Source: Candidatus Nitrosotalea okcheonensis (GTDB lineage Archaea; Thermoproteota; Nitrososphaeria; Nitrososphaerales; Nitrosopumilaceae). Taken from it: a stretch of 64,000 nt of DNA. The stretch lies in NCBI RefSeq assembly GCF_900177045.1, contig NZ_LT841358.1, positions 699,073 through 763,072 on the forward strand, given 5' to 3'. The notes below the pieces were generated by a model. It did no database searches. It was given only the letters and a program-made list of their open reading frames with translations, and was not told where the DNA came from. Shown piece by piece: positions 25,576 to 42,977 of the stretch. The first letter of the stretch is position 1. Each line of letters opens with the position of its first letter. A program made the position numbers and the translations under genes.

Positions 25576-25600
25576 GGTTACCGCTATAACGGTTGTAGTG
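25576..25600 (+). repeat. Intergenic repeat, copy A
   Basis: GGTTACCGC-TATAAC-GGTTGTAGTG, 22 of 25 bases identical to copy C at 30446. Sits in the 336-bp gene-free gap left of the metal cluster; nothing else is visible in that gap. Confidence 0.6.
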
Positions 25601-25693
25601 TGCACCTGTCCCTAATTTTTCTTATCATTTGAATTTTTAGTCTTTTAGATTTTGTCAAATCTGTTTTTGTGTTTCTTTACTGTAAATAATCAG

Positions 25694-26275
25694 TTATCCT
25701 ATTGGTGGCATAAACCATTTTAGAAAATCAGGAGTATTGACACCAAGGCCATAAAGAATTAACGGTATTGCAGTGCTAGTAAGAAGTATTCCAGCTACAA
25801 GTCTTGTTATCCTAAGGGGAACTTTCTTTACCACTCCAAGCCAAACCAAGCCCACAAGCAAGGCTATTGCAATAAAAAATCCTATCAATGCACTTGTTAT
25901 CTCAATGAGACTAAAAGTGGCCAGTGCCACTGAATTTTCTACTGCCTCAAGCATTGCTATGTAAAAATAAGTTATCTTGTATTTTGTTGATTGATGTTCC
26001 TCATCCTCATCTTCAAAAAATTCTTTAAACATTGTACCGCTAAAAAATAGTAATCCCACTCCCAAAGATACCTCAAGGATTCCAGTAGGTACAAAGCCAG
26101 CTACTTTCAAGAAGACAAAATAAAGTATTACACCAACTATTAGGCCTAGAATAGTTATCTTGACTGTCTGTCTTAATCCTATCTTGCTTGCAGTGCCTAT
26201 TCCTACAAGAACCTGTTCCCCACCCTCTATGAATATGTACTTGAATGAAGTGAAAAATACGATCAGCTCAAACAT
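25694..26275 (-). CDS. Membrane protein resembling FTR1-type iron permeases
   Basis: 193 aa with about six hydrophobic helices. Helix 1 has FKYIFIEGGEQVLVGIGTA, placed like the REGxE iron-exchange motif of FTR1 but with EGGE. The second half has a similar MLEAVENSVALATFSL and a KKVPLRITRLVAGILLTSTA strip close to the FTR1 C-terminal region. An acidic loop EFFEDEDEEH separates the halves and could bind metal. The family assignment is tentative; a TMEM165/GDT1-like exporter is the alternative. It opens the metal cluster. Confidence 0.55.
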   Translation of the reverse strand: MFELIVFFTSFKYIFIEGGEQVLVGIGTASKIGLRQTVKITILGLIVGVILYFVFLKVAGFVPTGILEVSLGVGLLFFSGTMFKEFFEDEDEEHQSTKYKITYFYIAMLEAVENSVALATFSLIEITSALIGFFIAIALLVGLVWLGVVKKVPLRITRLVAGILLTSTAIPLILYGLGVNTPDFLKWFMPPIG

Positions 26276-26294
26276 GGAATCAATACCTATGAAT

Positions 26295-26762
26295 CTATTT
26301 TGTTATTATAATCTTCCAAACAGGGTGTATCTCGTTCCAGCCATGTGGGGTATCAGTAACCCAAGCACCGATAGCACGAATTTTATCTCCTTCTTTTGGA
26401 ATTTGTACATTGGAGGAATTCTGATCTTTTGGTATTATCTCAACTACAAGCATGCCCTTTACCTGGTTGTTATTTGCATCATTTAGCAGATGTTTGTATT
26501 GAGAATCTAAATCTACATTGAACTGGTAATCCCCGTCATCCTGCTTTGATATGTCATGTACCGTTCCTGTTATGGTTTCACAAGTGGAAAGAACGTTAAA
26601 TCGTGCCTGCCTGTCTACGCCGTCCAAAACATTTCCCTGCCTGCAACTTGGGTCAGAGTTTGTCTGCAGTACAGTTTGTGGTCCAAAATAATGATAATAA
26701 CCATATATGCCTATTATAGCTACAATTACTACTGCAATTGCAGCCAAATACTTCTTTTTCAA
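26295..26762 (-). CDS. Membrane-anchored beta-domain protein, unknown
   Basis: From a TTG start giving KKKYLAAIAVVIVAIIGIYG: one N-terminal anchor, then an extracytoplasmic domain. One Cys pair (DPSCRQGN and VLSTCETITG) could form a disulfide. The later part (GTVHDISKQDDGDYQFNVDL, then DTPHGWNEIHPVWKI) looks like an OB-type beta barrel with a conserved WNEIHPV end. A longer frame to 26810 exists with another TTG. Placed between the FTR1-like permease and the CsoR-like remnant. Confidence 0.6.
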   Translation of the reverse strand: MKKKYLAAIAVVIVAIIGIYGYYHYFGPQTVLQTNSDPSCRQGNVLDGVDRQARFNVLSTCETITGTVHDISKQDDGDYQFNVDLDSQYKHLLNDANNNQVKGMLVVEIIPKDQNSSNVQIPKEGDKIRAIGAWVTDTPHGWNEIHPVWKIIITK

Positions 26763-26905
26763 AATATCGACCTTGAATTTGTTCGATTTTGCATAATAAA
26801 AATCACACAAAATTCAATATGGTCTGAAACATGCTGTAGATTATAGAATTTTAGAAACCTTATTCCTTAGTTCTATTGCAGATTTCTTTCCACTTCCATT
26901 GGTCT

Positions 26906-27099
26906 TCAGGCTTTGTGTTCGACCAGATCTTCAACTATTACTCCCAACGCACCGTCCAAAGCAGCTCTTACTGCAGTAATTTGCTGCACAATTTCTGGAT
27001 TAACTCTTCCCTCATCAATCATTTTCCTTTTATGCCTTTGACATGTCCCTCTATCCTTGCAAGTCTTCTTTCTACCTCAGGAAGTTTGTGATGTGTCAT
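26906..27099 (-). pseudogene. CsoR/RcnR-family (DUF156) metal repressor with a frameshift
   Basis: First frame: MTHHKLPEVERRLARIEGHV KGIKGK, then stop. Shifted frame: MIDEGRVNPEIVQQITAVRA followed by ALDGALGVIVEDLVEHKA. Together they give the four-helix CsoR core (RIEGxVxGIxxMI..QIxAVRxAL). The break is at an A run near 27021-27025. The copper-site Cys residues of CsoR (in 'rC' of helix 2 and 'HxxxC' of helix 2') are absent: Asn and His occupy these places, so metal specificity would differ or the gene has lost function. It precedes a P1B ATPase, the usual CsoR context. Confidence 0.65.
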
Positions 27100-27185
27100 G
27101 TTTTATTTTTCATCTCACAGTGGGATCTATCTGGTCGGATAGTTTATCCAACGTTTAAAATGGATATCCATGCCATGAGGTAGAA

Positions 27186-29225
27186 TCAAGGCTTTGCACC
27201 TGTGAATTGCTTATCAAGAATCAATCGTGCCGAGTTTACCATAAAGACAAGCTCAGAAGACACGTGGATCGCTGCTGCAAGAAGCGGATTTATGTGGCCA
27301 GTAAAAGCAAGTACAAATCCAAAGCCATCAACGCTCAACGTTCCAAAGTAGTTTTGCTTGATTGCAAAAATGGATTGTCGTGAATTTTTAATCAAGTATG
27401 GAATCTTCATCAGATCTTCTGACATCAGGACCACATCCGCAGTTTCTATGGCAACATCTGTTCCGGTCTTACCCATAGCTATTCCGATATGAGCTTTTGC
27501 AAGTGCAGGTGCATCATTTACTCCATCTCCAACCATTACAACCATCTTGTCTTTGCCATGTGTTTTTACAATATCTTCGATCTTTGAGACCTTGTCTTGT
27601 GGAAGCAACTCTGCATAATACTCATCAATGCCAACTTCTTCTGCAATTCTTTTTGCTATCTTCTCATTGTCGCCAGTTAACATTACAACTTTGATATTCA
27701 TTTTTTTGATCTTGTTGATTGCTTCTTTTGCATCATCTCTTAGAGAATCCTCAAAAAATAGTGCTCCAACAAGTTGTCGGTCTATTGCAAGAAACGTGGC
27801 AGTAAGTGCAAACTGTAAAAGATTAACATCTTGCTGTCTTACAATCTGTAAAGTATGACCTGCGTTATCCTTGTATTCATTTACCAAATATTGAAACGAA
27901 CTTCTTTTTGATTTCAATAATTCTGACATTCTCTGGGACGCATGTTCTGTATCGCCATCATTGATCACCTTGTCTATAAATTCAAGATTACCAAGGCTGA
28001 TTTGTTGTTGATTGAATATCCTTCTTACTCCCCCTCCTACTGTAACCATGTTGGAAACAGTAGAACGCTCATTTGAAATCAGTATCCCTTCCTGAATTGC
28101 TCTCTCCTCCACTGCTCTTGCAAGGGGATGATTGATGTTTTTCTCAATCGTGGCTGCATATTCAAGTATCTTTTTGGGTGTCTCGGAGGGATCCAGAGAG
28201 ACTACCTGAGAAACGACAGGCTTGCCGTGGGTTAACGTGCCTGTCTTGTCAAAGACCACTATTCCAGCACGGCTTAGATTCTCAATCTGAAGGCCCCCTT
28301 TGATGACAATTCCGCGCTTTGAGATTTTGCCTATTGTAGCAAGCAATGCTATCGGAGTTCCAACTGCTAGACCGCATGCACCTGCCACAATAATTACTGA
28401 AAGTGTTGATACGATGTTTTGTGTTACAAGATATGTTACAACAGATAGTCCTATTGCAAACTGGATAAGTCGAGTAGCCATTTTATCGCTTAATTTTTGT
28501 ATCGGAGCCTTTGATGCCTCAGCTTCCTCTACAAGCTGTATTATTTTTGCAAAGGTTGTGTCTGTGGACTTCTTTTCACATCGAATTTCCAACTGTTGTG
28601 TCAAATTTATCGTTCCCGCAAATACGTGGTCTCCGATCTTCTTTTCAACTGGAAGGCTTTCTCCGGTTATGCTAGACTGATCAATTGTGGATGAGCCTGA
28701 AATTATTACACCGTCAACTGGTATTACGTCTCCTTCTCTTACAATTATTATGTTTCCAACATTTACCTGTTCTATCTCAAGTGATTGTGTTTGGCCGTCA
28801 TCGTTTTTGACAAGCGCTTTTCTTGGGGCTAAACTGTATAGCTTCTCAATGTTTTTTCTCCCTTTTTTCACAATAAAGCCTTCAATAAATTCCGACATTA
28901 TTGCAAAGAATGTAACAACTATTGCAGGAAGAAATTGAAACAAAGCTAATGAGGCAATTATTGCTATGACCATGGAAAGTTCCATGTTTACACGACCATT
29001 TCTTAGCGCGCCCAGTGATTCTTTGAAGAGCGGATAACCGCCAATCATCACCGTGATTGTAATGACGATTTTTCCAATCCAATCAGGCTGTATGATCTGT
29101 AGCCATGCGATAAATATCATAACTAGTCCGATTCCAACTATGCGTAGAATTTCTATCCGTTTATCATCTGGTTCCTCAGCTAACTCGTGTGCCTTTTTGG
29201 GATCGTATTCACAGGCTCCAGACAT
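27186..29225 (-). CDS. P1B-type heavy-metal ATPase with altered CPC motif
   Basis: 679 aa. A-domain TGES (SSITGESLPVEKK), phosphorylation DKTGTLTHGKP, N-domain HP (NHPLARAVEERA) and P-domain hinge MVGDGVNDAPALAKAHIG are all intact. In TM6, where P1B pumps have CPC, SPC or TPC, the sequence is VAGACGLAVGTPIALLAT: only the last Cys remains and the invariant Pro is Ala. No N-terminal HMA domain; the N-terminus is short with one Cys (SGACEYDP). Metal could be Zn2+, Co2+, Cu+ or another ion. Flanked by a CsoR-like remnant and a CDF exporter. Confidence 0.88.
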   Translation of the reverse strand: MSGACEYDPKKAHELAEEPDDKRIEILRIVGIGLVMIFIAWLQIIQPDWIGKIVITITVMIGGYPLFKESLGALRNGRVNMELSMVIAIIASLALFQFLPAIVVTFFAIMSEFIEGFIVKKGRKNIEKLYSLAPRKALVKNDDGQTQSLEIEQVNVGNIIIVREGDVIPVDGVIISGSSTIDQSSITGESLPVEKKIGDHVFAGTINLTQQLEIRCEKKSTDTTFAKIIQLVEEAEASKAPIQKLSDKMATRLIQFAIGLSVVTYLVTQNIVSTLSVIIVAGACGLAVGTPIALLATIGKISKRGIVIKGGLQIENLSRAGIVVFDKTGTLTHGKPVVSQVVSLDPSETPKKILEYAATIEKNINHPLARAVEERAIQEGILISNERSTVSNMVTVGGGVRRIFNQQQISLGNLEFIDKVINDGDTEHASQRMSELLKSKRSSFQYLVNEYKDNAGHTLQIVRQQDVNLLQFALTATFLAIDRQLVGALFFEDSLRDDAKEAINKIKKMNIKVVMLTGDNEKIAKRIAEEVGIDEYYAELLPQDKVSKIEDIVKTHGKDKMVVMVGDGVNDAPALAKAHIGIAMGKTGTDVAIETADVVLMSEDLMKIPYLIKNSRQSIFAIKQNYFGTLSVDGFGFVLAFTGHINPLLAAAIHVSSELVFMVNSARLILDKQFTGAKP

Positions 29226-29293
29226 ACATATCCTCTGGAGGAGGATGGGATATATTGTTTTCTGGCTATAATTTTTGGAATAAACACAGGAAT

Positions 29294-30178
29294 TTATTTA
29301 TCTAAATTAATCAGATCATCATCGTTTTCAATCTGTATCGTACAGTGATTAATCCCGAATTTTTCCCTCATCAGTACATTAATTTTTTTCAAGATCGAGT
29401 TTGCTCTGCCCATGTGTTGATGCTTTACCTTGATATGAGCTGACATGGCAACAACATTGGACGTCAGAGTCCAGATGTGAAGATCGTGTATTTCCGTAAT
29501 CTCCTCAAATTTGTGAATTTCTTTTGCAACATCATCTGCCTTTATCTCATGAGGTGTCCCCTCCATGAAGATGTGGAAGCACTCCTTGCACAGAGATATT
29601 CCAGATCGCAGTATCAATCCTGCAATCCCAATGCTGATTATTACATCGATTATCGCGTTTGGTATGAACATCATCAACACTGCACCACCAATCACAGCTA
29701 CTGTAGATATCAGGTCGCCCAGAACGTGTGCATACGAGCCTTTGACGTTCAGGTTGGACTTGCTCTCCTTTTTCAGGAGAAGAGCCGTTACTACGTTTGC
29801 TACGAGTCCTATTGCCGCAAAAATCAGGACTGTCGTAATGTCAACCTTGTGTGTACTGAGAAATCGTGAGTAGGCCTCATAGAAAATCCATCCAGTAATT
29901 GCAATCAGGGATACGCCGTTTGCAAGTGCGGCAAATATCTCTATTCTGTGGAACCCGAAGCTCATTGTTGAAGAATGCGGCCTTTGCGCAACCCTGAAGG
30001 CTATGAAAGTCAGCCCTATTGCAAGAAAATCTGTCAGTATGTGAAACGAGTCTGAAAGAAGGGCGAGGCTGTTGCTCACCAGTCCTCCGACTAGCTCTAC
30101 CACGAATATTCCGACTGTAATTACAAATGCAATCCCAAGTTTCTTTTCAACCTGCATACCCTCATGAGAATGGTTCAA
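29294..30178 (-). CDS. Cation diffusion facilitator, CzcD/ZitB-like exporter
   Basis: 294 aa, six membrane helices. The metal site shows as LLSDSFHILTD (TM2, HxxxD) and HVLGDLISTV (TM5, HxxxD), the Zn2+ pattern of CDF proteins. The cytoplasmic C-terminal domain (about 210-290) has IHDLHIWTLTSNVVAMSAHI, the dimer ferredoxin-like fold. His-rich N-terminus MNHSHEG. Exports Zn2+ or similar by H+ antiport. Downstream of it on the same strand is the P1B ATPase (68-base gap), so both probably serve metal efflux. Confidence 0.92.
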   Translation of the reverse strand: MNHSHEGMQVEKKLGIAFVITVGIFVVELVGGLVSNSLALLSDSFHILTDFLAIGLTFIAFRVAQRPHSSTMSFGFHRIEIFAALANGVSLIAITGWIFYEAYSRFLSTHKVDITTVLIFAAIGLVANVVTALLLKKESKSNLNVKGSYAHVLGDLISTVAVIGGAVLMMFIPNAIIDVIISIGIAGLILRSGISLCKECFHIFMEGTPHEIKADDVAKEIHKFEEITEIHDLHIWTLTSNVVAMSAHIKVKHQHMGRANSILKKINVLMREKFGINHCTIQIENDDDLINLDK

Positions 30179-30373
30179 ATCGTCTTCACTCTGGCATGTT
30201 GCATCATATGTTATTAACGTCGTGCTAGAAATTTATGCTCTTTTTAATAATTGTTAATAACAGAACGATATTTTCTTAACATATCTAGGTTATGATAGCA
30301 TATTTTTCCATCTGCCAAAACCTGACTCCTTGACAGGCCCAAGTTCGTAACATCTTTTGCGTATGGTTCCAAT

Positions 30374-30398
30374 GGTTCCCGCCATAACAGTTGTGGTG
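30374..30398 (+). repeat. Intergenic repeat, copy B
   Basis: GGTTCCCGCC-ATAACAG-TTGTGGTG; 22 of 25 identical to copy C. First of three related copies in the 512-bp gene-free gap right of the metal cluster. Confidence 0.55.
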
Positions 30399-30445
30399 AG
30401 CTCTTTTGAATTCGTCAATTTACTAAAAAAATCTACGGGTCCGAT

Positions 30446-30470
30446 GGTTACCGCCAGAACAGTTGTAGTG
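30446..30470 (+). repeat. Intergenic repeat, copy C
   Basis: GGTTACCGCC-AGAACAG-TTGTAGTG with GGGTCC on both outer sides (about 30438 and 30470). Confidence 0.6.
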
Positions 30471-30487
30471 GGTCCTGCAAAAACAAG

Positions 30488-30514
30488 GCCCGTGAAAACA
30501 GTTTTAGCTGGCCC
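30488..30514 (+). repeat. Intergenic repeat, shorter copy D
   Basis: GGCCCGTGAAAACAG then TTTTAGCTGGCCC: shares the AACAGTT-TAG core and the GGCC-type flanks with copy C but lacks the ACCGCC part. Coordinates good to about two bases. Confidence 0.4.
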
Positions 30515-30690
30515 GTGGGTTTTCTAGCTCCAGAGGATTTGGATTCAAGGTTTTGTCAGAAAAAATTAGTACAAAATGGGCAGTAATCTTATAGGAGTAG
30601 CTACAAAACTCCTTTTCCTTAATTTTTTCTAATTTCTTTAACTCTCATGTTTGAATGATTTTGAATGATTTTTGTTAAATGTTTTATCTA

Positions 30691-32226
30691 TTATTTTACA
30701 ATAAAAAAGATTTGGCCCAAATCCATGTCTTGATAGTTTCCGCTCACAACATATTTTCCAGAAGGATAAGAATTATCCAGAGTTATCGACGTACTAAAAC
30801 TGCCACTGTCAGTTACATCCGCATTTACTCGTACTTTGGTATTATCTGGTTTTACTATTGTCAGAACCACATATCCTCCAACGGGATTACCTACTGTTCC
30901 AGATATAGTTTCTACTAGAGGTCTGTTCATTGTTAACTTTGCATCATGATATTTTACCATTACAGTATATGATTTATCATTGTAAGAAAATATTGCTGAT
31001 GTGTCTCTAGGTGCATTGTCGGCAATCTTCACATCTGCAATTCCGCCATCATCGTAATTAGCAAAGATGCCGACATTTGGTTGAATTTCTCTGGTGGTAA
31101 AAGGTCCAGAGAGTCCACTAATTGAATTGGTACGCATAAGTCCATTATTGTCTTTAAACAAGGTTTGAATTCCATTACTTTGGGATTCTGTAATAACCAC
31201 TCCTTGAGGAAGATATCCTGTTAATGCGCCATTATGATTGAACATAAGAGCAGTCAAATTCCCAATAAGATTTTGCATTGCCAGTGTACCGTCTGCATCT
31301 GGCTTGCCATTTCTGTCAAATGCCATGTAATACAACGTGTTATTAATTGGAGAGATACCCCAAGTCCAAGAGTCTTCAGAGGTTGGATCAATGTTAAGTT
31401 GTGGATCAATCAAGTCGCCCTGAATTTCTGCACCTGGAGGAAAATCGGGCCTATTGGAATACGCATTAATCATGTTAGACGGAATTTTGTCAAAGATCAA
31501 GGCGACTATTTGATCACCACCTGCTTTTTGATAATCAACTGTGACTGGAGTTGGAATTGATGAGAAGTCATACAATTGGATTACGGGCCATATATTTTCC
31601 TCAATAGCATTAGCTGCAAAACCATTTGGATTCATGTTAAGAGTTTTATTTTGTCTTATCACATGTTCCATTTGGTTTGCAGTGAGCATTCCTTGTATGT
31701 TTGTGCATAGAGGAAGATTTGATGGACTAATTTTTGTACCTCCATTATTGGTGTCATTGATTGAACCAAATCCTCCTCTAGCAATCGTAAATCCCACAGT
31801 ATCCGAATAGACAAGACCAGATTTTGGTGAGAATGAACTATTTGGTGCACAGAAACCGCCAAAATTCAGCCCTTTACCAGTAATTACGGCAGTGTTAGCA
31901 GCAGCAATCGCTTGATTTCTATCAGCAAAGTACGCATACCAATTTCCATCTGTTGTTTGAGCCATTCTTAATCTCTTGCCATTGACAGTTACTATTGGTT
32001 CACCGTAGGCCTGATCTAATCTGTTTATGCCAGGATCATTTACACTCACTTCAATTACTTGCGGACCTGCAAAATAATTTTTAAACAAAGAATTTTCTGT
32101 AGATACATACAAGTTGGGATTTGATGACATATGTTGAGTTGGTTCATACGATGGAAGAAGTGGTTCCATTGCGTAAGCCTGTGACATGGCAATGATTTCC
32201 ATGACAATGTTAACTGTTAACAACAT
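30691..32226 (-). CDS. Large secreted beta-rich protein
   Basis: About 511 aa from an ATG giving a short signal peptide (MLLTVNIVMEIIAMSQAYA). Body rich in Asn, Gly, Thr and Ser. An N-terminal domain carries IEVSVNDPGINRLDQAYGEP (Ig-like strand pattern with DPGIN). A C-terminal Ig/PKD-like unit reads VETISGTVGNPVGGYVVLTI ending GQIFFIVK. Similar DP-x-x-N and Ig-like modules occur in thaumarchaeal S-layer and surface proteins, so a cell-envelope role is likely; an enzyme activity is not evident. Confidence 0.65.
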   Translation of the reverse strand: MLLTVNIVMEIIAMSQAYAMEPLLPSYEPTQHMSSNPNLYVSTENSLFKNYFAGPQVIEVSVNDPGINRLDQAYGEPIVTVNGKRLRMAQTTDGNWYAYFADRNQAIAAANTAVITGKGLNFGGFCAPNSSFSPKSGLVYSDTVGFTIARGGFGSINDTNNGGTKISPSNLPLCTNIQGMLTANQMEHVIRQNKTLNMNPNGFAANAIEENIWPVIQLYDFSSIPTPVTVDYQKAGGDQIVALIFDKIPSNMINAYSNRPDFPPGAEIQGDLIDPQLNIDPTSEDSWTWGISPINNTLYYMAFDRNGKPDADGTLAMQNLIGNLTALMFNHNGALTGYLPQGVVITESQSNGIQTLFKDNNGLMRTNSISGLSGPFTTREIQPNVGIFANYDDGGIADVKIADNAPRDTSAIFSYNDKSYTVMVKYHDAKLTMNRPLVETISGTVGNPVGGYVVLTIVKPDNTKVRVNADVTDSGSFSTSITLDNSYPSGKYVVSGNYQDMDLGQIFFIVK

Positions 32227-32473
32227 TATATTAAACTTGGAAAAATAATCTTTGCATTTACATTTTTCTGTTCTGGCACAATATGAAAACTGTAGTAGGA
32301 TCTTATGGCAAAATGATACCATATCTATTTTATGCTTAATTTCTGATTATATTTAAGAAATTTCTTAATTTTTTATGCTGTATCAAACTGGTAAATTTCT
32401 GTGATTTGATCTTTTTCAATGTATTATGATACTGGTTTTGATGATTGATTATGATGAACTTTGTTGCCTATTC

Positions 32474-34162
32474 TCATGCATTCCAGTTAGCAGGAATAGT
32501 AAACGCAAAAGTAGCCCCCTTTCCTCCCATGTTGTTTTCAGTCCACATGTTACCACCATGAGCTTCAACAATGTTTTTAGAAATGAACAATCCTAGACCT
32601 GTTCCTGTCTCAGATTTTATTGCAAACTTGGTGAACAGTTGTGATAATACATCATTGTTTATTCCTGTACCAGTATCTTTTACCTTTACCAAAACATTAT
32701 CATCAATCCTTTCAACAGAAATGGTAATTACTCCTTTATCCGTGAACTTGAGTGCATTGTGAAACAAATTCATTATGATTTGAGTTAATCGTGCTCTATC
32801 TGCAGTGACAAAGATGTCTTTTTTTGCTTCAAATTTCAACTCAACATCTTTTTCCTTGTAATTGGAATGTAGGTGGTAATTAAAGTCCTGAAAGAGGTCG
32901 TAGATTAGATCTTTTATGTTAAATTGTTCTTTGTTAATTTTTAGTGTATTACTTTCTATTCTAGTAACATCCAAGATATTCTCGGCTACTCTTTGAAGTC
33001 TTTTTCCACTTTTAATGATTACATCTATCAAGTTAGTTTGTGATGAGATGTCTCCTTTTTTGTCTCGAAGAGATTCTGCCAAGCCTATGATTGGCTGTAT
33101 TGGAGTTCGCAATTCATGTGCTGCCACATTGATGAATTCTTTTTGCATTTTGTCCTGCACTTCCAATTTTTTATTTAATTTTTCCAATTCCTCAAATTGT
33201 TCTCTTAGGCGTGCCTCTCGTTCTTGAAGGTTCAATCTGGCTTTGTGTATCTCAGTCAAGTCTGTCAGTGCTACAGTTCTTCCAATCAAAATTCCGTGTT
33301 CGTCAAATAGACTTGTTCCTGTTAATAGCGTGGGGAAAATAATTCCATCCTTTCTTTTCATCCAAATTTCTATGCGTGAAATTTGTTGGGTTTTCTTCCA
33401 TTTTTTCAGGTCATTTCTCATATCTTCTATACTTCTTTCTGCAGTATGATCAAATATGGACATCCCAATAGCTTCTTCTTTTGTATAGCCTAGTGATTTG
33501 GCATATGCTTCATTGCAGTCAGTCAGGATTCCATCAGTTGTAATACTTCGTAACAAACTAGGAGATTTTTCATAGAGGTTTTTGTATTTTTTTTCAGTCG
33601 ATGATAGTTGTAGGTTAGATTGCTGCAACCTTTTGTTTGATTCTTTTATGTTTTCATGCAGTTCTAGTTCGGCCCAGAGACTTTCAAATATGAAGACATG
33701 CGAAAGAACAATTGGATTGCTACTAGAGTACGTAGTAAGACCCATTGCTTCATAAGATGTTTCTTTTGAATCATCCTTTAATTCCGCTATTAAGGAACAA
33801 ATTCTATCTACTATTAGAATTGATATTTTACTTTGAAGAGTAGATTCGATAAACTGGATATGGAGTTTGCCAGGTTCTTTATTTATTCTGTCAGATAATT
33901 CTCTTATCGCATTGTCTGTGGGAACAAGAATTCTTATCGATACATCTTTTTCTTTTGCTACTTTTTTTAGCAAATCTAACAATCCTGTCTTCTCCTGACG
34001 GCGAAATGCGTTGGCAGTAGAAAGCATCACAAGGATTTCTGTCTTGGCCGATTCTATAAGATCAATTGCAACTTTTAGTGCCTTGCGTGGATTTACAATA
34101 GTTTCCATCACATGCGGTGTTACTTCGGTTTGGTTAATTCTAAATTCAGTATCAATTTCCAT
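32474..34162 (-). CDS. PAS histidine kinase with N-terminal TrmB/PLD-like sensor
   Basis: About 562 aa. Residues 1-185 resemble the effector part of TrmB-type or phospholipase-D-like domains (NPRKALKVAIDLIESAKTEI and SIRILVPTDNAIRELSDRIN). One PAS at about 205-315 (YEKSPSLLRSITTDG) is close in sequence to the PAS units of the kinase at 6516. HisKA H in FINVAAHELRTPIQP; HATPase NLFHNALKFTD, DTGTGINN, TGTGLGLFIS. The ATG lies 11 bases inside the end of the upstream cyclase-REC gene, so the two are translationally coupled and likely one pathway. Confidence 0.88.
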   Translation of the reverse strand: MEIDTEFRINQTEVTPHVMETIVNPRKALKVAIDLIESAKTEILVMLSTANAFRRQEKTGLLDLLKKVAKEKDVSIRILVPTDNAIRELSDRINKEPGKLHIQFIESTLQSKISILIVDRICSLIAELKDDSKETSYEAMGLTTYSSSNPIVLSHVFIFESLWAELELHENIKESNKRLQQSNLQLSSTEKKYKNLYEKSPSLLRSITTDGILTDCNEAYAKSLGYTKEEAIGMSIFDHTAERSIEDMRNDLKKWKKTQQISRIEIWMKRKDGIIFPTLLTGTSLFDEHGILIGRTVALTDLTEIHKARLNLQEREARLREQFEELEKLNKKLEVQDKMQKEFINVAAHELRTPIQPIIGLAESLRDKKGDISSQTNLIDVIIKSGKRLQRVAENILDVTRIESNTLKINKEQFNIKDLIYDLFQDFNYHLHSNYKEKDVELKFEAKKDIFVTADRARLTQIIMNLFHNALKFTDKGVITISVERIDDNVLVKVKDTGTGINNDVLSQLFTKFAIKSETGTGLGLFISKNIVEAHGGNMWTENNMGGKGATFAFTIPANWNA

Positions 34163-35270
34163 GTTGACCAAGAGTTGTTTTTACTACCTCGACAAAATCT
34201 TCCTTGCTTATGGGCTTTCTCAATATCTGGCTTTTTTTTACTCCTGGTAACACACTTGCAATCTCTTCGATCCCATCAAGTGCAGATACAAAGAGTATTT
34301 TGACGGATAGTGATAATTCTCTGAGTCTATTGTAGAGTTCTAGGCCATTGACAGGTGACATCCTTACGTCTGATATTACCAAGTCATAATGGGAAGGATT
34401 GACTGTAACAAAACTACGGAGGGCCTCATCCCCATTTTTAAACATGTCAACTGCATAATTTTCATCGCTCAAAATTGTGTTGAAAGTAGTCAGAGTCTCC
34501 AAGTCATCATCAACTAACATAATGTTAATTTCAGATTTGTTTTTTTGATCTTGACTCAAATTTACTTTTGAGTTTTGTAGTGTACAAAGTCTTGATTCCC
34601 GTTTAAACGGATTTACAGGATTTGGTTTTTCTACTCTCAAGATGTACACAGGGTAAGGGAATTTGAGACCGGATGAATATGTACCTAATTCAGTCAAGCG
34701 GTACTCTTGTTTATCAAGGTGTAAGTATCGCAACACTTGATACAAATCACCACCAAGTGTAATGCTGTTTGTAGGTGTAAATGAATTAATTTTAGAACAC
34801 ATGTTCATTGTTGCACCAAAAAGATCATCTTCCTTTGAACTTAGGGATTTTGCGACTTCTACTTTTCCATAATCTGCACTAATTCTATAGTTAATGGCTG
34901 GTAAACCTTCTTGATATAGTTTAGTGTTAACTATTGGTCTGGCATCTATCAGTGCAAGTAAACAATCAAGGATATCTTTCCATGCATCTTTGTTTGTGGA
35001 ATCTTGCGATTCTGGAAAATAAAATATTAACGAATCCCCCACATTTTTCACTATTTTGGCACCAAAGCTTCTAACTATTGCCGCCATGGAGTTTAAAAAT
35101 AGTGAGTAGTATTTCCTTACTTTTGCAGTGTCATAAATGCAAGCTACCTCTTTGGTAGAACTTACCATGTCTACATAACAAACGCAGTAATTTCCCGATG
35201 ATGAAAAGCATACTTCTTCGTATGGAATATTGGAAAGAAAATCTGAATCTTGGGCATTATTATTGTTCAT
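34152..35270 (-). CDS. Class III nucleotidyl cyclase domain fused to a response-regulator receiver
   Basis: 372 aa. Residues about 18-215: cyclase homology domain with both metal-binding Asp (YVDMVSSTK and KNVGDSLIFYF). The transition-state Arg position is Lys (TMNMCSKIN), so activity may be reduced or changed. Residues about 248-368: REC domain with INIMLVDDDLETL, phospho-acceptor VISDVRMSPVNG, and ILRKPIS (conserved Lys). The order cyclase-then-REC is less common than REC first. The downstream histidine kinase overlaps and is the likely phosphodonor. Confidence 0.82.
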   Translation of the reverse strand: MNNNNAQDSDFLSNIPYEEVCFSSSGNYCVCYVDMVSSTKEVACIYDTAKVRKYYSLFLNSMAAIVRSFGAKIVKNVGDSLIFYFPESQDSTNKDAWKDILDCLLALIDARPIVNTKLYQEGLPAINYRISADYGKVEVAKSLSSKEDDLFGATMNMCSKINSFTPTNSITLGGDLYQVLRYLHLDKQEYRLTELGTYSSGLKFPYPVYILRVEKPNPVNPFKRESRLCTLQNSKVNLSQDQKNKSEINIMLVDDDLETLTTFNTILSDENYAVDMFKNGDEALRSFVTVNPSHYDLVISDVRMSPVNGLELYNRLRELSLSVKILFVSALDGIEEIASVLPGVKKSQILRKPISKEDFVEVVKTTLGQHGN

Positions 35271-35784
35271 TTCTTATATCCAAAGTAATAGAAGTAATAG
35301 GAAATAATGTATGGTTAGCTGAAATTACAAGTATTAAGCTGATTTGGTAAGCAGGTTTAGAATAATCCTGTATGCATGTAATTAATATATTAGCGATCCT
35401 ATGTGATGACAATTTTTGATCAATAGAATTATGTATAAACCATATTTAATATGCCACCACTGAGATACACGAACTTGCACGAATTTTATGAATTTAAATA
35501 CATATCATACTGTTTGCTCTGAAGACATGTAAACTTCCTTCCCTAATTTTTATTCTAATGCTCCAAACTAGTATGTTGACAATCTGTACAAAAGGACATA
35601 TGTACGGTACATACGCACCCGAATCTAATAAACAAATTCTTGGCTATTGTAAATGGTTTTAGATGGTTCTCAAAGGAAAACAAAACCACTATAACATAAA
35701 TTCCTAAAGGGCTATTGATTTATCAATCAAGGTTAAAGATTCAAAAATCATTCTAAATAATGTGGGGAGATGTATTCTTATTTG
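35271..35784. other. Gene-free stretch left of the IS
   Basis: 514 bases, AT-rich, no convincing frame, tRNA or repeat. It probably holds the promoter of the cyclase operon near 35280-35340 and neutral DNA. Confidence 0.5.
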
Positions 35785-36799
35785 TAGAGTACATGAATTA
35801 ATGTCCATAAAGCGTGCCACGGTGTGTCCATCTTACCATGCATGTTCCGTTAACATTGCATGGTAAAATCTACAATCAATACAAAATCTAGAGCAGTTCT
35901 CCTCTACGTGGAACATGTCCGCCAAGCAAATGAAATATGTGTAATGTTTGGAATATCTAGAAGAACACTAACCAGATGGGTCAGCACGTACAACAGGGAG
36001 GGATTCAAGCACTAGAATCAAAGAAGCTAGGTCCAAAACATCCGCATTTTATTCCAAAGAAGATTGAGCTGAAGATAGTAAGACTCAAACAAAAACATCC
36101 ATCATAGGGAGCAAGACGATCAAGTACCAGTACGATCTTCCATGTCACTGGAGGACGGTCCACCGTGTCATCAAGAGACGCCAGATGCTTGTGAGAACCA
36201 AGCCAAAACCACAACCAGCAAAAAGATTCCAGAGACGACACGTTGATTCCATGTGGCAGGGAGACACGTTTCAGTTCCGCATTTCAGGCACGGGAAAGGT
36301 GTATGTGACAGGGTTTACTGATGACCGCTCACGGTACCGTATCATATCGAAGGCATATCTGCGCAAGAGTGCTACCGAGGCAGTCAACGCACTACGTAAC
36401 GCGGTCAAAAAAGGTAAGGATCTCAAGGCAACTCTACCTTGACAACGGGAGACAGTTCACATCAAAAGAGTTCTCAGGGACGAGATTACAAAATGCGGCA
36501 TCAGGTCAGTCTATGGCATACCGTATCATCCACGAGGGAGAGGGAAGATTGAGAACTATCACAAGGTACTCTACAAGGATCTGATAACTCAGATCAGGTT
36601 CAGGTCACTTGCACATTTCAAGAGAGCTTGGAAAGTTTGACATGATATACAAACAATGGAGGAAGAGTCAAGCGTTAGGTTGTAAGACTCCAGAATCCAT
36701 TTACAACGACAAGAAGTACATTAGCAGGCATGTCAAAAGATGATTATAACATGGACAGAGATTCTGTCAACAAACATGGACATTAATTGTGGTACACTA
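35785..36799 (+). mobile_element. Decayed IS with terminal inverted repeats
   Basis: ATTAATGTCCAT (35797-35808) and ATGGACATTAAT (36776-36787) are perfect 12-bp inverted repeats, extended outward with mismatches (GTAC...AATTAATGTCCAT). Between them lies one frameshifted transposase. Outer boundaries are approximate and no target-site duplication was found. A relative lies at 40282. Confidence 0.75.
35860..36743 (+). pseudogene. Frameshifted DDE (integrase-core) transposase
   Basis: N-terminal HTH frame (35860-36015): RQANEICVMFGISRRTLTRW. After stops and shifts, the catalytic core reads HVDSMWQGDTFQFR (first Asp), DNGRQFTSKEF (second Asp, in another frame) and YHPRGRGKIENYHKV (Glu). The end is YNDKKYISRHVKR. 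This order is that of IS3/IS481-type transposases. At least three frame changes, so inactive. Confidence 0.8.
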
Positions 36800-36857
36800 C
36801 ATATAATGATACCAGATTGAAGACAAAAATAACGTAAGATCATAGATAATAATTGGG

Positions 36858-37013
36858 ATGACGTATTGTATCATGATAGAAAAAGAGTCGCCAAAATTTT
36901 GCAAAGGAATTTGCTGGTTTTGTCAAAACCACTGCAATATGTACAGTTATACTCATGAAGCATGTATAATAGATTATTTTAGCAAACCAAAACAGCGTCT
37001 AGTCACAGCATAG
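36858..37013 (+). CDS. Possible small Cys-rich protein
   Basis: 51 aa from ATG: MTYCIMIEKE, then KFCKGICWFCQNHCN and THEAC. Six cysteines and two His in a compact CxxxCxxCxxxC...HxxxC layout, suited to a zinc or Fe-S site. It occupies the gap between two mobile elements and may be cargo of either. Not seen as a known family. Confidence 0.4.
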   Translation: MTYCIMIEKESPKFCKGICWFCQNHCNMYSYTHEACIIDYFSKPKQRLVTA

Positions 37014-37102
37014 AAAATCAAATGATGAAAAATAAAACACAAAACAAAAAGTATGACATATGATCTAACTAAATTTTCATAAGTTTTTCGGGTTCTGTCA
37101 AC

Positions 37103-38275
37103 TTACTGGCTCACTGTTCTCCTTGTAAACTCTCGGCTCATTTGTGCATTTTGAATTAATGTAATCCACTTGTTATCACCTTCTACTTTGATACCACAGG
37201 CTTCACTTGGTGTTTTCCCATCCAAGCCCATGTGCGGTCTAACGTAGTTGTGGAATATCTCATAGCCTTTCAAGATTGGTGTATCCATTTTCTTTAGTCC
37301 TCTCATAGTCTTTTCACGATCTCGTATTTCTCCGTTTAGTCGTTCCATCTTGTTATTGTTCATGTCATTTTTGAAATGAATGTGACGAATATGCTCGGTT
37401 CTCTGTTCCAAAGGTCGTGCCCAAAACTCTTTCATGTAAGCTTGTTGAAAGTTCATAGCTCCGTCTGTAATCAAGACTTTAGGCTTCTTTCCTGCTACTT
37501 TTTTACCCTCTCTGAATAATTCGTTAATGTTCTCTTTGTATTTTGTATTTCCTACTTGTTGTGCAATTATGTATCTAGTTTCGTCATCTAATAGTGCATA
37601 CATGTATTTCATATTGCCTGAAATTTTCAAGAATAGTTCATCTGATCTCCAAGTGTCGCCTACTTGTGGAGTTATTTTCTCCAAATATCCGCTCATTAGT
37701 TTAGTGTATTTCTTAATCCAGTTGTAAACAGTCTGATGTGATACGTTTACTCCTTGCAGTTTCAAGAACTGTTGAACATTCCTTAATGATTCACCTGTAA
37801 AGTATAGTTGCATAGCTGAAGTGATTGCTTTAGGATTTACTCTCATTCCCTCAAATCCAATATTGAATACAAACCACTTGCCACAGTCCTTGCATGAAAA
37901 TCTCTGAATGTCACCTGACTTGTTTCGTCTAATTCCGTGCTTGACTATGTTGATAGATTGACATTCAATACACTTTGAACAATCAATTTGTTCTATTACG
38001 ACATTGTTTCTTTCCTTGACTTCTTTTCTTATCTTTACGCTAAACTCTACTGCGTGAATATGCTTACAGCAAATCTTTCGGTAAATGTGATCTTCGCAAT
38101 CACAAATTAGTCCAGATTCGGTAGATATGACATCATGTTCTAGGTTTCTTGATTGTGATTTTACTTTGTAGTGATGTTCGTCTATTCTTCTTACTTGATT
38201 ATGATTAGCTATTTCCTTTCCTCTTTCTTCACGGTTGTTATCATGTTTCAATGTATATCTATTGATTCTATACAT
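37103..38275 (-). CDS. IS6-like DDE transposase with SWIM and zinc-ribbon domains
   Basis: About 390 aa. The N-terminus has a SWIM-type zinc motif (CDCEDHIYRKICCKHIHAV), then a zinc ribbon (CSKCIECQS ... FSCKDCGKW), an HTH (GVNVSHQTVYNWIKKY) and the DDE core: WRSDELFLKI (D), KPKVLITDGAMNF (D), NNNKMERLNGEIRDREKTM (E). The YVRPHMGLDGKTPSEACGI end is typical of IS6/IS240. The upstream extension to 38470 crosses the RHH gene and is non-coding. The frame is intact, so the enzyme may be active. Confidence 0.85.
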   Translation of the reverse strand: MYRINRYTLKHDNNREERGKEIANHNQVRRIDEHHYKVKSQSRNLEHDVISTESGLICDCEDHIYRKICCKHIHAVEFSVKIRKEVKERNNVVIEQIDCSKCIECQSINIVKHGIRRNKSGDIQRFSCKDCGKWFVFNIGFEGMRVNPKAITSAMQLYFTGESLRNVQQFLKLQGVNVSHQTVYNWIKKYTKLMSGYLEKITPQVGDTWRSDELFLKISGNMKYMYALLDDETRYIIAQQVGNTKYKENINELFREGKKVAGKKPKVLITDGAMNFQQAYMKEFWARPLEQRTEHIRHIHFKNDMNNNKMERLNGEIRDREKTMRGLKKMDTPILKGYEIFHNYVRPHMGLDGKTPSEACGIKVEGDNKWITLIQNAQMSREFTRRTVSQ

Positions 38276-38315
38276 AGCGATATTATTAAATATATCGATA
38301 GGTATCAATATGTAC

Positions 38316-38453
38316 ATGGCAATGAAGAGATTCATGGTTTCAATACCTGAAGAGATGGAACGAGCATTGGAGAAGGAACGAAAAGAGAGAATGTTGGAAA
38401 CTGTCCCCGAAGTAATTCGGGTTATTCTTAGTGAATACCTAAGAAAAAAGTAA
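38316..38453 (+). CDS. Small ribbon-helix-helix protein (transposon passenger)
   Basis: 45 aa: MAMKRFMVSIPEEMERALEK then ERMLETVPEVIRVILSEYLR. An RHH of the CopG/Arc type: the beta strand KRFMVSIP contacts DNA and the two helices dimerise. An ATG six bases earlier is possible. Divergent from the transposase, whose start is 40 bases away, so it may repress transposase transcription. Ends one base before the convergent membrane-protein gene. Confidence 0.65.
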   Translation: MAMKRFMVSIPEEMERALEKERKERMLETVPEVIRVILSEYLRKK

Positions 38454-38454
38454 A

Positions 38455-39342
38455 TTATCTTGGAGGACAACGATCACACTTTCCCTTAAGATTTTGTTGT
38501 CCTTCACATAAATCTAATAGAAACACTTTTCTGCTCTCATTGAATCTGTTCTTGAACGATTCATCAAGATTTTTTTCCATTGTATCAAGCTCTTTCACTA
38601 TTGACATTAAATTCTGATCAAATGTTAAAGGAGAAAGAATATCCAATAATTTTTCAAGTGTAGACATATCACCTACTGCAATACTACCTTTGTTTTCCAC
38701 TTCCAGTGAGGGTAACAGATCAGAACGATTTTCAGTGACATTAATCTTAATCTTACATAATGGAATATACTCATTTACATGATGATCATACATGCTTTTC
38801 ATCATGAACTTCTCAAATTGTTTTTTCATAATATGGTGTTTGGTCTGACCAAGATATTCATCACTATCTGGTAAGTCTTTGAACGATTCAAGTTTTCTAT
38901 CTATGTAATTGTTAAACTCTCTGATTTTTTGTTCCATTTCATCCGTTTTAACATCATAATGAGCCCTACATTGTTGATACAGTTTACCAAGTTCGTATTG
39001 TTGTAGGTGTGATTTCAGATTTTCAAAGAGATCATGATGCTCACACCAAGAGAATTTGTTGATGGTTTGTGTCTCCCAATAAACACTAGGAGATGATGCA
39101 AGTTGATCCAAAATATCATAGAAAAATTCTTTATGTTTTTCTCTTCTATCATCTAGACGGCTTCTCTTTCCCGCTATATATGTAAAAATTCCGTTAAATG
39201 CTTCCACCATGATCAATCCTATTAGTAAATAATTGGAGGCGTATGTCGTTCCAAAAAATGTGTTTATAGATTGTGTGTAGTAGATTGAAAATCCCGCTAG
39301 GATCGGTATTACCACCAATGTTATGGTTAGTATCTTTCTCAT
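38455..39342 (-). CDS. Two-TM coiled-coil protein (transposon passenger)
   Basis: 295 aa. Two N-terminal hydrophobic helices (ILTITLVVIPILAGFSIYYT and SNYLLIGLIMVEAFNGIFTY), then a long charged helical cytoplasmic region with conserved-looking YWETQTINKFSWCEHHDLF, and a C-terminal CEGQQNLKGKCDRCPPR with three Cys. Located inside the right terminal repeat of the element. Unknown; membrane-helix plus helical domains occur in some defence proteins, but no such family is recognised. Confidence 0.6.
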   Translation of the reverse strand: MRKILTITLVVIPILAGFSIYYTQSINTFFGTTYASNYLLIGLIMVEAFNGIFTYIAGKRSRLDDRREKHKEFFYDILDQLASSPSVYWETQTINKFSWCEHHDLFENLKSHLQQYELGKLYQQCRAHYDVKTDEMEQKIREFNNYIDRKLESFKDLPDSDEYLGQTKHHIMKKQFEKFMMKSMYDHHVNEYIPLCKIKINVTENRSDLLPSLEVENKGSIAVGDMSTLEKLLDILSPLTFDQNLMSIVKELDTMEKNLDESFKNRFNESRKVFLLDLCEGQQNLKGKCDRCPPR

Positions 39343-39474
39343 TTCTCAGATCCCCGATCGTGCCTAGCGATTTAAATGAGCCGATGGTTGACAGAGAGAA
39401 ATATGAGCCATCAAGTTGACAACACCTTCTAGGATCATCTTTTTATTTTATAAAATCGTATATAATACAGCGAT

Positions 39475-40245
39475 ATGGCATCAACTGCTCGCATGTCTTG
39501 GCGAGTAAGCAACTCGCTTATTGTGATACTAGTCATAACCCTGTACATTTTACTTCCATTACCATTCTTTCTGGGTGAAAAAACTGACAGTAAAACCATG
39601 CTAACTTTTTATCAATACTCGATGCCATTTCTTGCAGGTGGGCTTGTACTGTTATTTTTATTCAAACAAAATAGAATAGCTGTTCCAACAAAAGATGAAA
39701 AACAACGAAGAGGATCTGAGAGAAGACAGATAGTCAGGCTTGGTGCAATAGCAGGTTGTATTGCCTCTTTTTCTGTCCTTGTGCCCATATTTTTGGGTGA
39801 ATATGCAACACATCTGCCTCCAGGCACATATCTTTCAGTACTTGGAACAGTACTTGGAAGCTACATTGGAAATACCCAGTACAGCTTTGTGCTTGGCCTT
39901 ATGGCACACTTGATAACTGGAACTGCGATAGGCGCTGTATTTAGCTGTATCATGTCAGCGTCTGAAATATTTGATTTTAGGAAAAAAAGTCAGGTGTTTG
40001 CATTTGGCCTTGGTGCAGGCTTTATCACATTTCTTGCACTGTTCAATCCAATATCGAGACTTGGCATAGAGCCATACCTGCAACAGTCGTTGCATGTTAC
40101 AATGACAAACGCAGATCCAATAACCATATCCAATACTGCAAGAGAGATAATGTCAAATCTATTGGCAGGATCTCTTTTGATGCATCTGCTCTTTGGTTTC
40201 ATGCTGGGAATGGCTTTCTACGTACTGGCACGAAGATATACGTGA
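39475..40245 (+). CDS. Multi-pass membrane protein, unknown
   Basis: 256 aa with about seven hydrophobic segments. Cytoplasmic basic loop KDEKQRRGSERRQIVRLGA after TM2; helices 3-7 are Gly/Ala/Ser-rich (GTVLGSYIGNTQYSFVLGLM, HLITGTAIGAVFSCIM). Composition is more typical of the core genome than of the neighbouring elements. No family recognised; possibly a transporter subunit. Confidence 0.6.
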   Translation: MASTARMSWRVSNSLIVILVITLYILLPLPFFLGEKTDSKTMLTFYQYSMPFLAGGLVLLFLFKQNRIAVPTKDEKQRRGSERRQIVRLGAIAGCIASFSVLVPIFLGEYATHLPPGTYLSVLGTVLGSYIGNTQYSFVLGLMAHLITGTAIGAVFSCIMSASEIFDFRKKSQVFAFGLGAGFITFLALFNPISRLGIEPYLQQSLHVTMTNADPITISNTAREIMSNLLAGSLLMHLLFGFMLGMAFYVLARRYT

Positions 40246-40281
40246 TTACGTGTAGAGTATCAGAGATAATGCCCGCTTAGC

Positions 40282-40543
40282 GTATCACAATTAATGTCCG
40301 CATAAACACCCACGGCATGCTTCTGATGCATGGTAAAAGTAACAGATGAAATCAGAATCAGGGCGGTCATTTTGCATACCCTCAATGGCAAACATGCAAA
40401 GGAAATTTGTTCTGCGTATGCGATATCTGACCTAACCCTCAGAAGATGGGTCAGATCATACAGGAGTGGGGGTGGCTGGAATCAGACACAAAATGGATCC
40501 ATTAAAGTTATTACAACGAGGAAGTTTACATGTCTTCAAAGCA
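40282..40543 (+). pseudogene. Truncated relative of the 35.8-kb IS
   Basis: Starts with the same terminal repeat (GTATCACAATTAATGTCC, 40282-40299), then a 50-residue HTH frame from 40330 (KHAKEICSAYAISDLTLRRW) homologous to the start of the decayed transposase at 35860. The rest of the element is missing: sequence stops resembling it before the 171-bp repeat starts at 40544. Confidence 0.7.
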
Positions 40544-40714
40544 GAAATACAATAAAAATAATTCTGAACCGTATGATCAGTCTTATTAGAATCTTTAAAG
40601 TACATCACACATGTTAAGAGAATGTGGGAAATAATGAAAGGAGATCTAAAATTAAATAATAAATCAAATGTCACACTATCTATAGATACTGCAATTTTTA
40701 ATGAAATAAAAAAA
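40544..40714. repeat. Left arm of a perfect 171-bp inverted repeat
   Basis: Identical, base for base as read, to the reverse complement of 42398-42568. Contains 78 bases upstream of the start codon plus the first 31 codons of the RHH gene. Identity ends abruptly on both sides. Confidence 0.9.
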
Positions 40715-41185
40715 TATGCTGAAGATCAAGGACAAAGTGTCAATGCGTTGTTGAATACTGTGTTGACAAAGTATGTTCTGCTCTATGGACCTGCTGAGGT
40801 GCAAGAGGGCATGCTAGTTCCGCACAAGTTCTTTAGTGGGTTACTGAAATACATTCCTGATGATGATCTGTTGGAGTTGATACATGAAGATGGTTTTGAA
40901 GCTATCAGATCAATTTTCGTACAAGGGGGAATTTCATTTAGTATTGATAATATGATCACATACGTTTTTGAACGCATTGCTCTATGGGCTGGTACATACT
41001 ACAAATTCCGTAGTTATCATGATGATGATGGTTGGCTATGTCTTGCCTTTGAACATAGTTATGGGATAAAATGGTCTAAAGCCTTAGGTGAATCTCTCTC
41101 TATTATCATTAAAGAAATATTGAATCATGATTCAGAACATAAAATTACTGCCTCAACAACACTCATCCGAGTAAACGTTAAATGA
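40622..41185 (+). CDS. RHH regulator with GIKWS domain, paralog 1
   Basis: 187 aa. Residues 15-50 form an RHH unit (NVTLSIDTAIFNEIKK, then QSVNALLNTVLTKYVLLY). The rest includes ISFSIDNMITYVFERIALWA and FEHSYGIKWSKALGESL, shared with paralogs at 41927 and 15509. The first 31 residues, including the DNA-reading beta strand, are identical to those of paralog 2 at DNA level; after that, identity falls to about 40 percent. The start may be the ATG five codons in (MKGDLKLNNK). A GGAG Shine-Dalgarno-like string is inside the repeat but downstream of both ATGs. Confidence 0.75.
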   Translation: MWEIMKGDLKLNNKSNVTLSIDTAIFNEIKKYAEDQGQSVNALLNTVLTKYVLLYGPAEVQEGMLVPHKFFSGLLKYIPDDDLLELIHEDGFEAIRSIFVQGGISFSIDNMITYVFERIALWAGTYYKFRSYHDDDGWLCLAFEHSYGIKWSKALGESLSIIIKEILNHDSEHKITASTTLIRVNVK

Positions 41186-41248
41186 TGTTTTCTACTCTTC
41201 TAATATGATATTGTAAATTAATTTTCATAATTTTTCTTACTGTAAATT

Positions 41249-41822
41249 TCAGAACACTTGTTGGTCCATGGTAAAAACTTCGCTGTGCCCAGATTTTGGT
41301 ACGTAAATAACTGTATGATGGTTTTGACGTAGATCGTCGCGCCACTGTTTCTTTTTACTCGGTTCAATCTTTGAAACATCATATGAGCACATTATAGAAC
41401 CTCCAAGATCGTCAAATTGATTTTGAACATCTCTTTCAATGTTCAATTCTGCAGAAATTCTTTCCATGGTATCTACATTTGGAATAATTCTAGAAACTAT
41501 TCGAAATGGTGTTCTGATATTCATCTGAATCATTATCCAATCTCTCCTACAATGCAAAATCTCATCTCGACTACCAGATCTATGACTAATTTGTAAAATA
41601 CGTTAGTTGTTTACTCTGGAAATATTTCAAAGGAATGCCATAATTTAACATTTCAATAACTATGGAGCAAGAATCTTCTTCTGTTGCATACCTGCATTCT
41701 TCTCCACTTGTTAGCCCGTTTTTTATGAACCTGAACATTATCATCTTGGCATGTTCTAGATCCTCGTAAAGTAGGAGTATGTGCTTACGTGATGTAAGAT
41801 TATCTACATAATTAATCGGGTA
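41249..41822 (-). pseudogene. MEDS-domain sensor remnant
   Basis: The 5' part, without any start codon, reads RKHILLLYEDLEHAKMIMFR then FIKNGLTSGEECRYATEEDS, and the 3' part, one frame over, reads ERDVQNQFDDLGGSIMCSYD then VSKIEPSKKKQWRDDLRQNH. These match the start and end of MEDS (DcmR-type sensory) domains: HxxLLYxxxEE, GLxxGExCxY and CxYDxSxI. The two frames meet near a TAG at 41617. It lies inside the inverted-repeat segment, between the two RHH paralogs, on the strand of paralog 2. Confidence 0.65.
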
Positions 41823-41926
41823 TCACATATTGTTTTCAATTACGTGACTTGGGAACAAATTGAATATTTAATACCCTGCCACTGATCTACACTGTTTACA
41901 CGATAAAAATGTCATTAGTCTTACAG

Positions 41927-42490
41927 TTATTTTTTATCTACTTTTACTAATACTGCTGTTGATAGGGCTTTGAAAGTAGAAGTCTGGTTTGCCATCTCTC
42001 TGATCATATTACAGATGCTTGCTCCTAATATCCTAGACCACTTGATTCCTAATTTATGGTCAAACACAAGACATGTGTATCCTTCTTCATCAACATAGTG
42101 TCGAAATCGTCGATATGCTCCCGCCCATAATGCAACTTTTTCAAAATGATGTTTAATTAAACCGTCTAGTGTGAAAGGTATGTTGTCATGCACATAAACG
42201 GCTTGCATTGTTTCCACTGAAACGTTGGTTAACAATTCAATGTGTTTATTTTCATCTAATAATTCTATGAATGCTTCAAAATATTTTCTCGGTATGGATG
42301 CACCCTCTTGATCTTCAAGATGTTTATAAAATAATACATGTTTTGCCAGTATGGTATTAATTTTTGTGTTAACGCTTATTGTTTGATTTTTTGAATCTTT
42401 TTTTATTTCATTAAAAATTGCAGTATCTATAGATAGTGTGACATTTGATTTATTATTTAATTTTAGATCTCCTTTCATTATTTCCCACAT
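41927..42490 (-). CDS. RHH regulator with GIKWS domain, paralog 2
   Basis: 187 aa, same length as paralog 1 and convergent with it. Shared RHH start (SNVTLSIDTAIFNEIKK), then a divergent helix (QTISVNTKINTILAKHVLFY) and sensor part (IPFTLDGLIKHHFEKVALWA, FDHKLGIKWSRILGASI). Because the promoter and DNA-reading strand are identical to paralog 1, both proteins probably bind the same operator and may form mixed dimers, while the sensor parts differ. Confidence 0.75.
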   Translation of the reverse strand: MWEIMKGDLKLNNKSNVTLSIDTAIFNEIKKDSKNQTISVNTKINTILAKHVLFYKHLEDQEGASIPRKYFEAFIELLDENKHIELLTNVSVETMQAVYVHDNIPFTLDGLIKHHFEKVALWAGAYRRFRHYVDEEGYTCLVFDHKLGIKWSRILGASICNMIREMANQTSTFKALSTAVLVKVDKK

Positions 42491-42568
42491 TCTCTTAACA
42501 TGTGTGATGTACTTTAAAGATTCTAATAAGACTGATCATACGGTTCAGAATTATTTTTATTGTATTTC
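42398..42568. repeat. Right arm of the perfect 171-bp inverted repeat
   Basis: Reverse complement of 40544-40714. The arms enclose 1683 bp holding both divergent gene bodies and the MEDS remnant. Confidence 0.9.
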
Positions 42569-42794
42569 CATTGTTACAGTATTTGTGGAAACTTTTGTTG
42601 TAACTTTTGCTGAGAATGATTTCGTGAGCATATCAGAAAATGAGGTCGCTAGCACTGCGACAGTACGAAGCCAAGAGTTACAGAAGATTCGTTGTTTTTT
42701 ACAACGTTTCCAAGTCTTCTTATCTCTACGTCCTGACTGAGTGTATAACAATTTCAAAAAATTAGGCGTGAACTATTTAAAGAAAAAATAGGTA

Positions 42795-42890
42795 CGCCAG
42801 GTAAGGGATTCGAACCCCTGCATGCTTGCGCATAACCGCTACCTTGTTTTTGATCTCGAGGCGGTCGCCGTTCCGCTTGGCTAACCTGGC
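42795..42890 (-). tRNA. tRNA-Ser (CGA) with a short intron
   Basis: Acceptor GCCAGGT pairs with ACCTGGC, discriminator G, CCA not encoded. D arm GCC...GGC, anticodon stem ACCGC/GCGGT, T arm TTCGAAT. The long variable arm (ATGC-GCAA-GCAT) marks a class II tRNA. The anticodon loop reads CTCGAG, then an extra 14 bases (ATCAAAAACAAGGT) before A and the 3' stem, consistent with an archaeal intron at 37/38. Anticodon CGA reads UCG. Just upstream of fen1 and 1.6 kb from a recombinase remnant. Confidence 0.9.
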
Positions 42891-42977
42891 ACTTGTTAGA
42901 AAGTTGGATTTTGGTACATAAATAACATGGCAATGAAACTGATCAGTAGATCAAGTATATAATAAAGGATATAAAGT

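Follow-up and report, generated by a model that had tools for sequence, protein, structure and literature searches.

Two RHH regulator genes at one end of a decaying genomic island in Candidatus Nitrosotalea okcheonensis, here called RHH1 and RHH2, share identical 5' ends in inverted orientation on old, diverged bodies, an arrangement that we think probably arose by one recent ectopic gene conversion between old paralogs, running from right to left and truncated by an insertion sequence (IS). The locus has the look of a single recombination scar and not of a new genetic switch. Its components (mobile island, IS decay, conversion between paralogs) are all of ordinary kinds. Features are listed in Table 1, with positions given in the window, that is, the whole stretch of 64,000 nucleotides that was analysed.

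Table 1. Features of the locus and its surroundings in the window, with the basis for each assignment
Feature	Position	Strand	Basis
Genomic island of 17.3 kb in a tRNA gene 3' end, att repeat of ~11 bp, CGCCAGGTAAG	25482..42808	.	Window positions 25495 and 42795 are directly contiguous in G210 and G205
IS remnant related to that at 40330; its terminal repeat (35515-35539) matches, its right limit is approximate	35515..36750	+	HTH and rve pieces; 24/25 terminal repeat
IS remnant: transposase HTH start and IS end, terminal repeat at 40519-40543	40330..40543	+	HTH_28 / HTH_Tnp_1; copies end at same base
Left arm, derived copy: RHH-gene tail (12 bp), 78 bp with promoter, 27 codons of RHH1	40544..40714	+	100% to right arm; G202 RHH-b homology ends at outer border
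RHH1: RHH domain and possible TRAPP/V4R/H-NOX-like body, 183 aa; ORF extendable to 40622	40634..41185	+	Domain searches, relatives' starts, low-confidence model
MEDS gene (DcmR-type sensory domain), disrupted by a frameshift near 41603	41255..41819	-	tblastn with G202 MEDS: frame changes 41604/41602; Pfam MEDS E 1.4e-6 (first piece); 70% nt to G202
RHH2: paralog with same 5' end, 183 aa; ORF extendable to 42490	41927..42478	-	Relatives' starts, low-confidence model
Right arm, native copy, putative donor	42398..42568	-	RHH-b homology crosses outer border to 42656
C-terminal remnant of RHH-b (third RHH gene)	42557..42656	-	65% aa over 34 residues of G202 RHH-b, E 7e-9; 82% nt
Intron-containing tRNA gene, 3' end the integration site	42798..42892	-	Read from sequence; synteny break at 3' end

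Compared within the one assembly, the two arms agree at 171 of 171 positions, as the earlier note had reported, and this identity, which runs through noncoding and silent sites without a single difference, is beyond chance as judged from the sequence. The arms are the sole perfect repeat longer than 22 bp within the window, and no perfect inverted repeat of at least 30 bp was found in 381 kb of related loci. Their sequence occurs at exactly two sites in the single-contig genome of 1,972,585 bp, a copy number that rules out transposon ends. In other sequence collections, neither the arms nor the genes had an exact 33-mer match (genome contigs, viral contigs), and no relatives were found there as proteins by pattern scan or among phages or plasmids. 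Each arm holds the last 12 bp of a third RHH gene (EIQ and the stop), an intergenic stretch of 78 bp, and 27 codons. These codons encode the beta strand and the greater part of helix A; RHH1 and RHH2 differ in the second helix and in the body. Related proteins begin MRGD, MRGE or MRGN, and so the start codons of RHH1 and RHH2 are probably those of the MKGD at 40634 (+) and 42478 (-). Of the content first ascribed to the arms, the beta strand stands, the 31 codons become 27 by the relatives' starts, and the 12-bp tail of the third gene had been missed. A 12-bp palindrome at 40677, TATCTATAGATA, sits in coding sequence and was not accepted as a recombination site.

Beyond the arms the two genes are far apart. 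Both are intact, convergent ORFs, pointing toward each other as had been described, and over codons 28-183 they share 38% amino-acid identity (close to the roughly 40 percent claimed) and 53% nucleotide identity. Identity by codon position is 54% at first, 66% at second and 39% at third positions; the differences are thus concentrated at third positions, implying a long history of constraint at the protein level in both genes. In a tree built from the bodies only, weakened by long branches, RHH1 and RHH2 fall with relatives from G197 and G207 in a clade with 97/96 support, without grouping as recent twins. By these comparisons RHH1 and RHH2 are old paralogs, and the age of the bodies rules out a recent duplication of the whole gene. 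Set against such bodies, the 171/171 arms uphold the earlier claim that the starts were recently homogenised, and the identical 78 bp of intergenic DNA bears out a common promoter for the two genes.

The outer borders of the arms point to the direction of copying. By tblastn the C-terminus of RHH-b from the related genome G202 lies at 42655-42554, terminating inside the right arm, and DNA similarity to G202 is unbroken over 42543-42656, across the right-arm border, while it stops at the outer border of the left arm. The RHH-b gene thus runs on past the right arm, which marks that arm as the native one. The outer neighbour of the left arm (40519-40543) is an IS end preceded by a transposase HTH piece, and three IS copies end at this same base: 40519-40543, 35515-35539 (24/25, inverted), and G197:C34:5653-5686. 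Repeat and IS thus meet at this left border, and the tract originally copied may have been longer; an RHH-b remnant was looked for beyond the IS at 35514, and none was found. Homology flanking the tract is present on the body side, and on the left outer side it has been replaced by the IS end. These borders also bear on the possibility that the arms are collapsed copies or that the inverted layout was misassembled, because short-read assembly can go wrong at repeats of such length. We consider such an artefact very unlikely: the assembly is 99.8% complete and in one contig, both sides have unique flanks and bodies, the right border continues into homologous RHH-b, and the left border coincides with an IS end that is found elsewhere.

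The copying can be dated relative to the two nearest species, G210 and G205, which differ by ~6-7% from this genome. Arms as old as that split should differ at ~11 of 171 positions. They differ at 0, so the event is younger than the split, with an age of at most ~30% of the time since then (95% bound); the absence of the island from both species agrees with a young event. As in ectopic conversions between paralogs, a sharply bordered identical tract lies within diverged copies (171/171 against 53% nucleotide identity), and the copies are older than the tract by both the body tree and the age bound. Unlike the usual case, the tract spans a promoter and a start, is inverted, and has one border at an IS end. 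We hypothesize that the 5' end of RHH2 (the RHH-b tail, the intergenic promoter and the first 27 codons) was copied onto RHH1, by ectopic gene conversion or by inverted copying followed by repair, and that later, or alongside, an IS insertion or an IS-adjacent deletion truncated the left copy on its outer side, at 40543. With that outer side of the original left copy lost, conversion between two existing gene copies looks the same as the joining of an inverted, duplicated fragment to RHH1. RHH1 would have lost its own start and would now stand under the RHH2 promoter, reading DNA with the same strand. The likely outcome is two regulators transcribed from the same promoter, with the same DNA-reading strand and different effector domains.

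The earlier note had proposed instead that recombination between the arms inverts the 1683-bp middle, which holds the two bodies and the frameshifted MEDS gene, and thereby swaps the body that follows each flank. Such an inversion is possible: homologous recombination needs no more than the 171 bp of perfect inverted identity present here, and in inverting hsdS loci repeats of 15-85 bp recombine (PMC7394358). When the inversion was computed, however, both reading frames were kept and both proteins were unchanged, as promoter and start lie inside both arms; only the outer flank standing upstream would be altered. Recombination between the arms is feasible as claimed, but it does not amount to an inversion system: a switch should change product or expression, and here the same two proteins result, with the promoter in both arms, so that the proposed switch has no output readable from the sequence. 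The order of genes tells against it as well. In G202, RHH-a, RHH-b and MEDS follow one another on one strand; in the window the RHH-b remnant, RHH2 and MEDS lie on one strand and are followed by RHH1 on the opposite strand, such that RHH-b and MEDS keep the orientation that they have in G202, with no sign of flipping. The island ORFs scanned yielded no recognisable recombinase gene, and no inverted arms were found in the 381 kb of related loci. We regard an invertible regulatory cassette as most improbable.

The surface-layer genes of Campylobacter fetus, like RHH1 and RHH2, combine conserved 5' ends with bodies that differ between copies; there, one promoter in an invertible segment selects the expressed copy, whereas here the promoter is present in both copies. 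Surface-gene inversion systems in that species and others are among those cited in PMC11852207. Inverting type I hsdS loci (PMC7394358) likewise hold close-lying, differing paralogs with identical inverted DNA, but inversion there makes new proteins, often with a recombinase gene at the locus, unlike the unchanged proteins and the lack of a recognised recombinase gene here. With such loci known, and ectopic conversion between paralogs being ordinary, the statement that no system of this type had been described was too strong.

Members of the RHH-sensor family are present in 91 of 250 genomes of the organism's family, and another (15509-16087, RHH and sensor body) lies in the window outside the island. 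No orthologous RHH1/RHH2 pair was found in the other genomes searched. At other loci with at least two members, upstream regions are 54-73% alike and starts 62-72%, near the bodies at 61-68%, and a shared 5' end is absent from every other paralog pair compared; the earlier note had itself counted a lack of relatives with shared 5' ends on different bodies against its reading, and among the pairs examined this is what was found. A tandem pair with one member from each of two RHH clades occurs in five species of the genus (L022, L027, L033, L036, L077); in the sequences compared, then, the pairing of RHH clades recurs and the sharing of 5' ends does not. MEDS genes adjoin family members in G202, G197, G182 and G209. 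Separately, L068:501-5700 (G186:C261) has perfect direct repeats of up to 500 bp, with MEDS pieces repeated with shorter direct repeats at ~353-bp spacing, which suggests recent tandem duplication.

These comparisons bear on whether the two starts are actively kept equal, by selection or by repeated conversion, to serve one promoter and operator, perhaps with mixed dimers. Such maintenance would account for the zero differences at noncoding and silent sites, for the two intact ORFs and for the mostly third-position differences in the bodies, and the tandem two-clade pairs in five species would make paired use a family habit; yet a single recent event suffices for zero differences, at other loci the 5' ends of the recurrent pairs have diverged in the ordinary way, and we judge this reading unlikely. 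Its narrower form, in which repeated conversion keeps the promoter and DNA-reading start equal such that two signals act on one operator, possibly via mixed dimers, we hold to be slightly less likely again. A common operator or mixed dimers of RHH1 and RHH2 would be plausible in themselves.

The locus forms the right end of the 17.3-kb island, which is bounded by direct att repeats and is absent from G210 and G205, where the flanks are 91-94% identical and the site is empty. The tRNA gene at its border receives no call from ARAGORN at default settings. Island cargo includes a P-type ATPase, a cation efflux protein, a PAS histidine kinase, a cyclase-receiver protein and several IS remnants. At 34152-35270 a class III nucleotidyl cyclase is fused to a response-regulator receiver domain, and at 37096-39421 lies an IS240/IS6-like element whose terminal inverted repeats are 48 bp long and 79% alike; it encodes a transposase (37103-38470) and has a passenger ORF of 295 aa (38455-39342) that is unexplained. 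No integrase or tyrosine recombinase was recognised among the island ORFs scanned, and no tyrosine recombinase exceeded the cut-off genome-wide. By gene content the host resembles the ammonia oxidisers among the thaumarchaea. Integrated elements of thaumarchaea occupy tRNA genes, including intron-containing ones, and CopG/RHH genes are frequent in their cargo (PMC6563490). The island resembles them in its site at a tRNA gene 3' end and in its CopG/RHH proteins, and differs in the lack of a recognised integrase, in its metal-transport and signalling cargo, and in its heavy IS decay.

Both proteins open with the strand-helix-helix of RHH (CopG/Arc/MetJ) regulators, the two helices being predicted at low confidence, and their profile matches (DUF6364, CopG, Arc-like) are weak: RHH1 matches DUF6364 at E 1.3e-5, just under the cut-off, and an Arc-like PHROG at E 1.2e-5, and the RHH2 matches are weaker. 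Unlike those regulators, they are fused to a body of ~130 aa that may resemble TRAPP/V4R/H-NOX folds, consistent with the earlier description of two RHH regulators with separate C-terminal domains, both RHH and diverged in their bodies. The two structure models share a topology; their confidence is low (pLDDT 61 and 59) because the input was limited to proteins of the window. For residues 52-183 of RHH1 (the pLDDT 61 model), most natural structural matches were Bet3/TRAPP, H-NOX and the phenol sensors PoxR/DmpR/MopR, with Z values of 6.5-8.1; the top-scoring matches were designed proteins and were not counted as relatives. Middling Z values are frequent in structural comparison. The models suggest that the bodies are TRAPP/V4R/H-NOX-like sensors, which we take as a lead, not a result.

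The locus offers a clean, datable case in which partial gene conversion would have rewired archaeal regulators within a mobile island. It also exposes a little-described RHH family, often paired or beside MEDS genes, with a possible TRAPP/V4R/H-NOX-like sensor body; if that fold is true, RHH1 and RHH2 would be one-component sensors.
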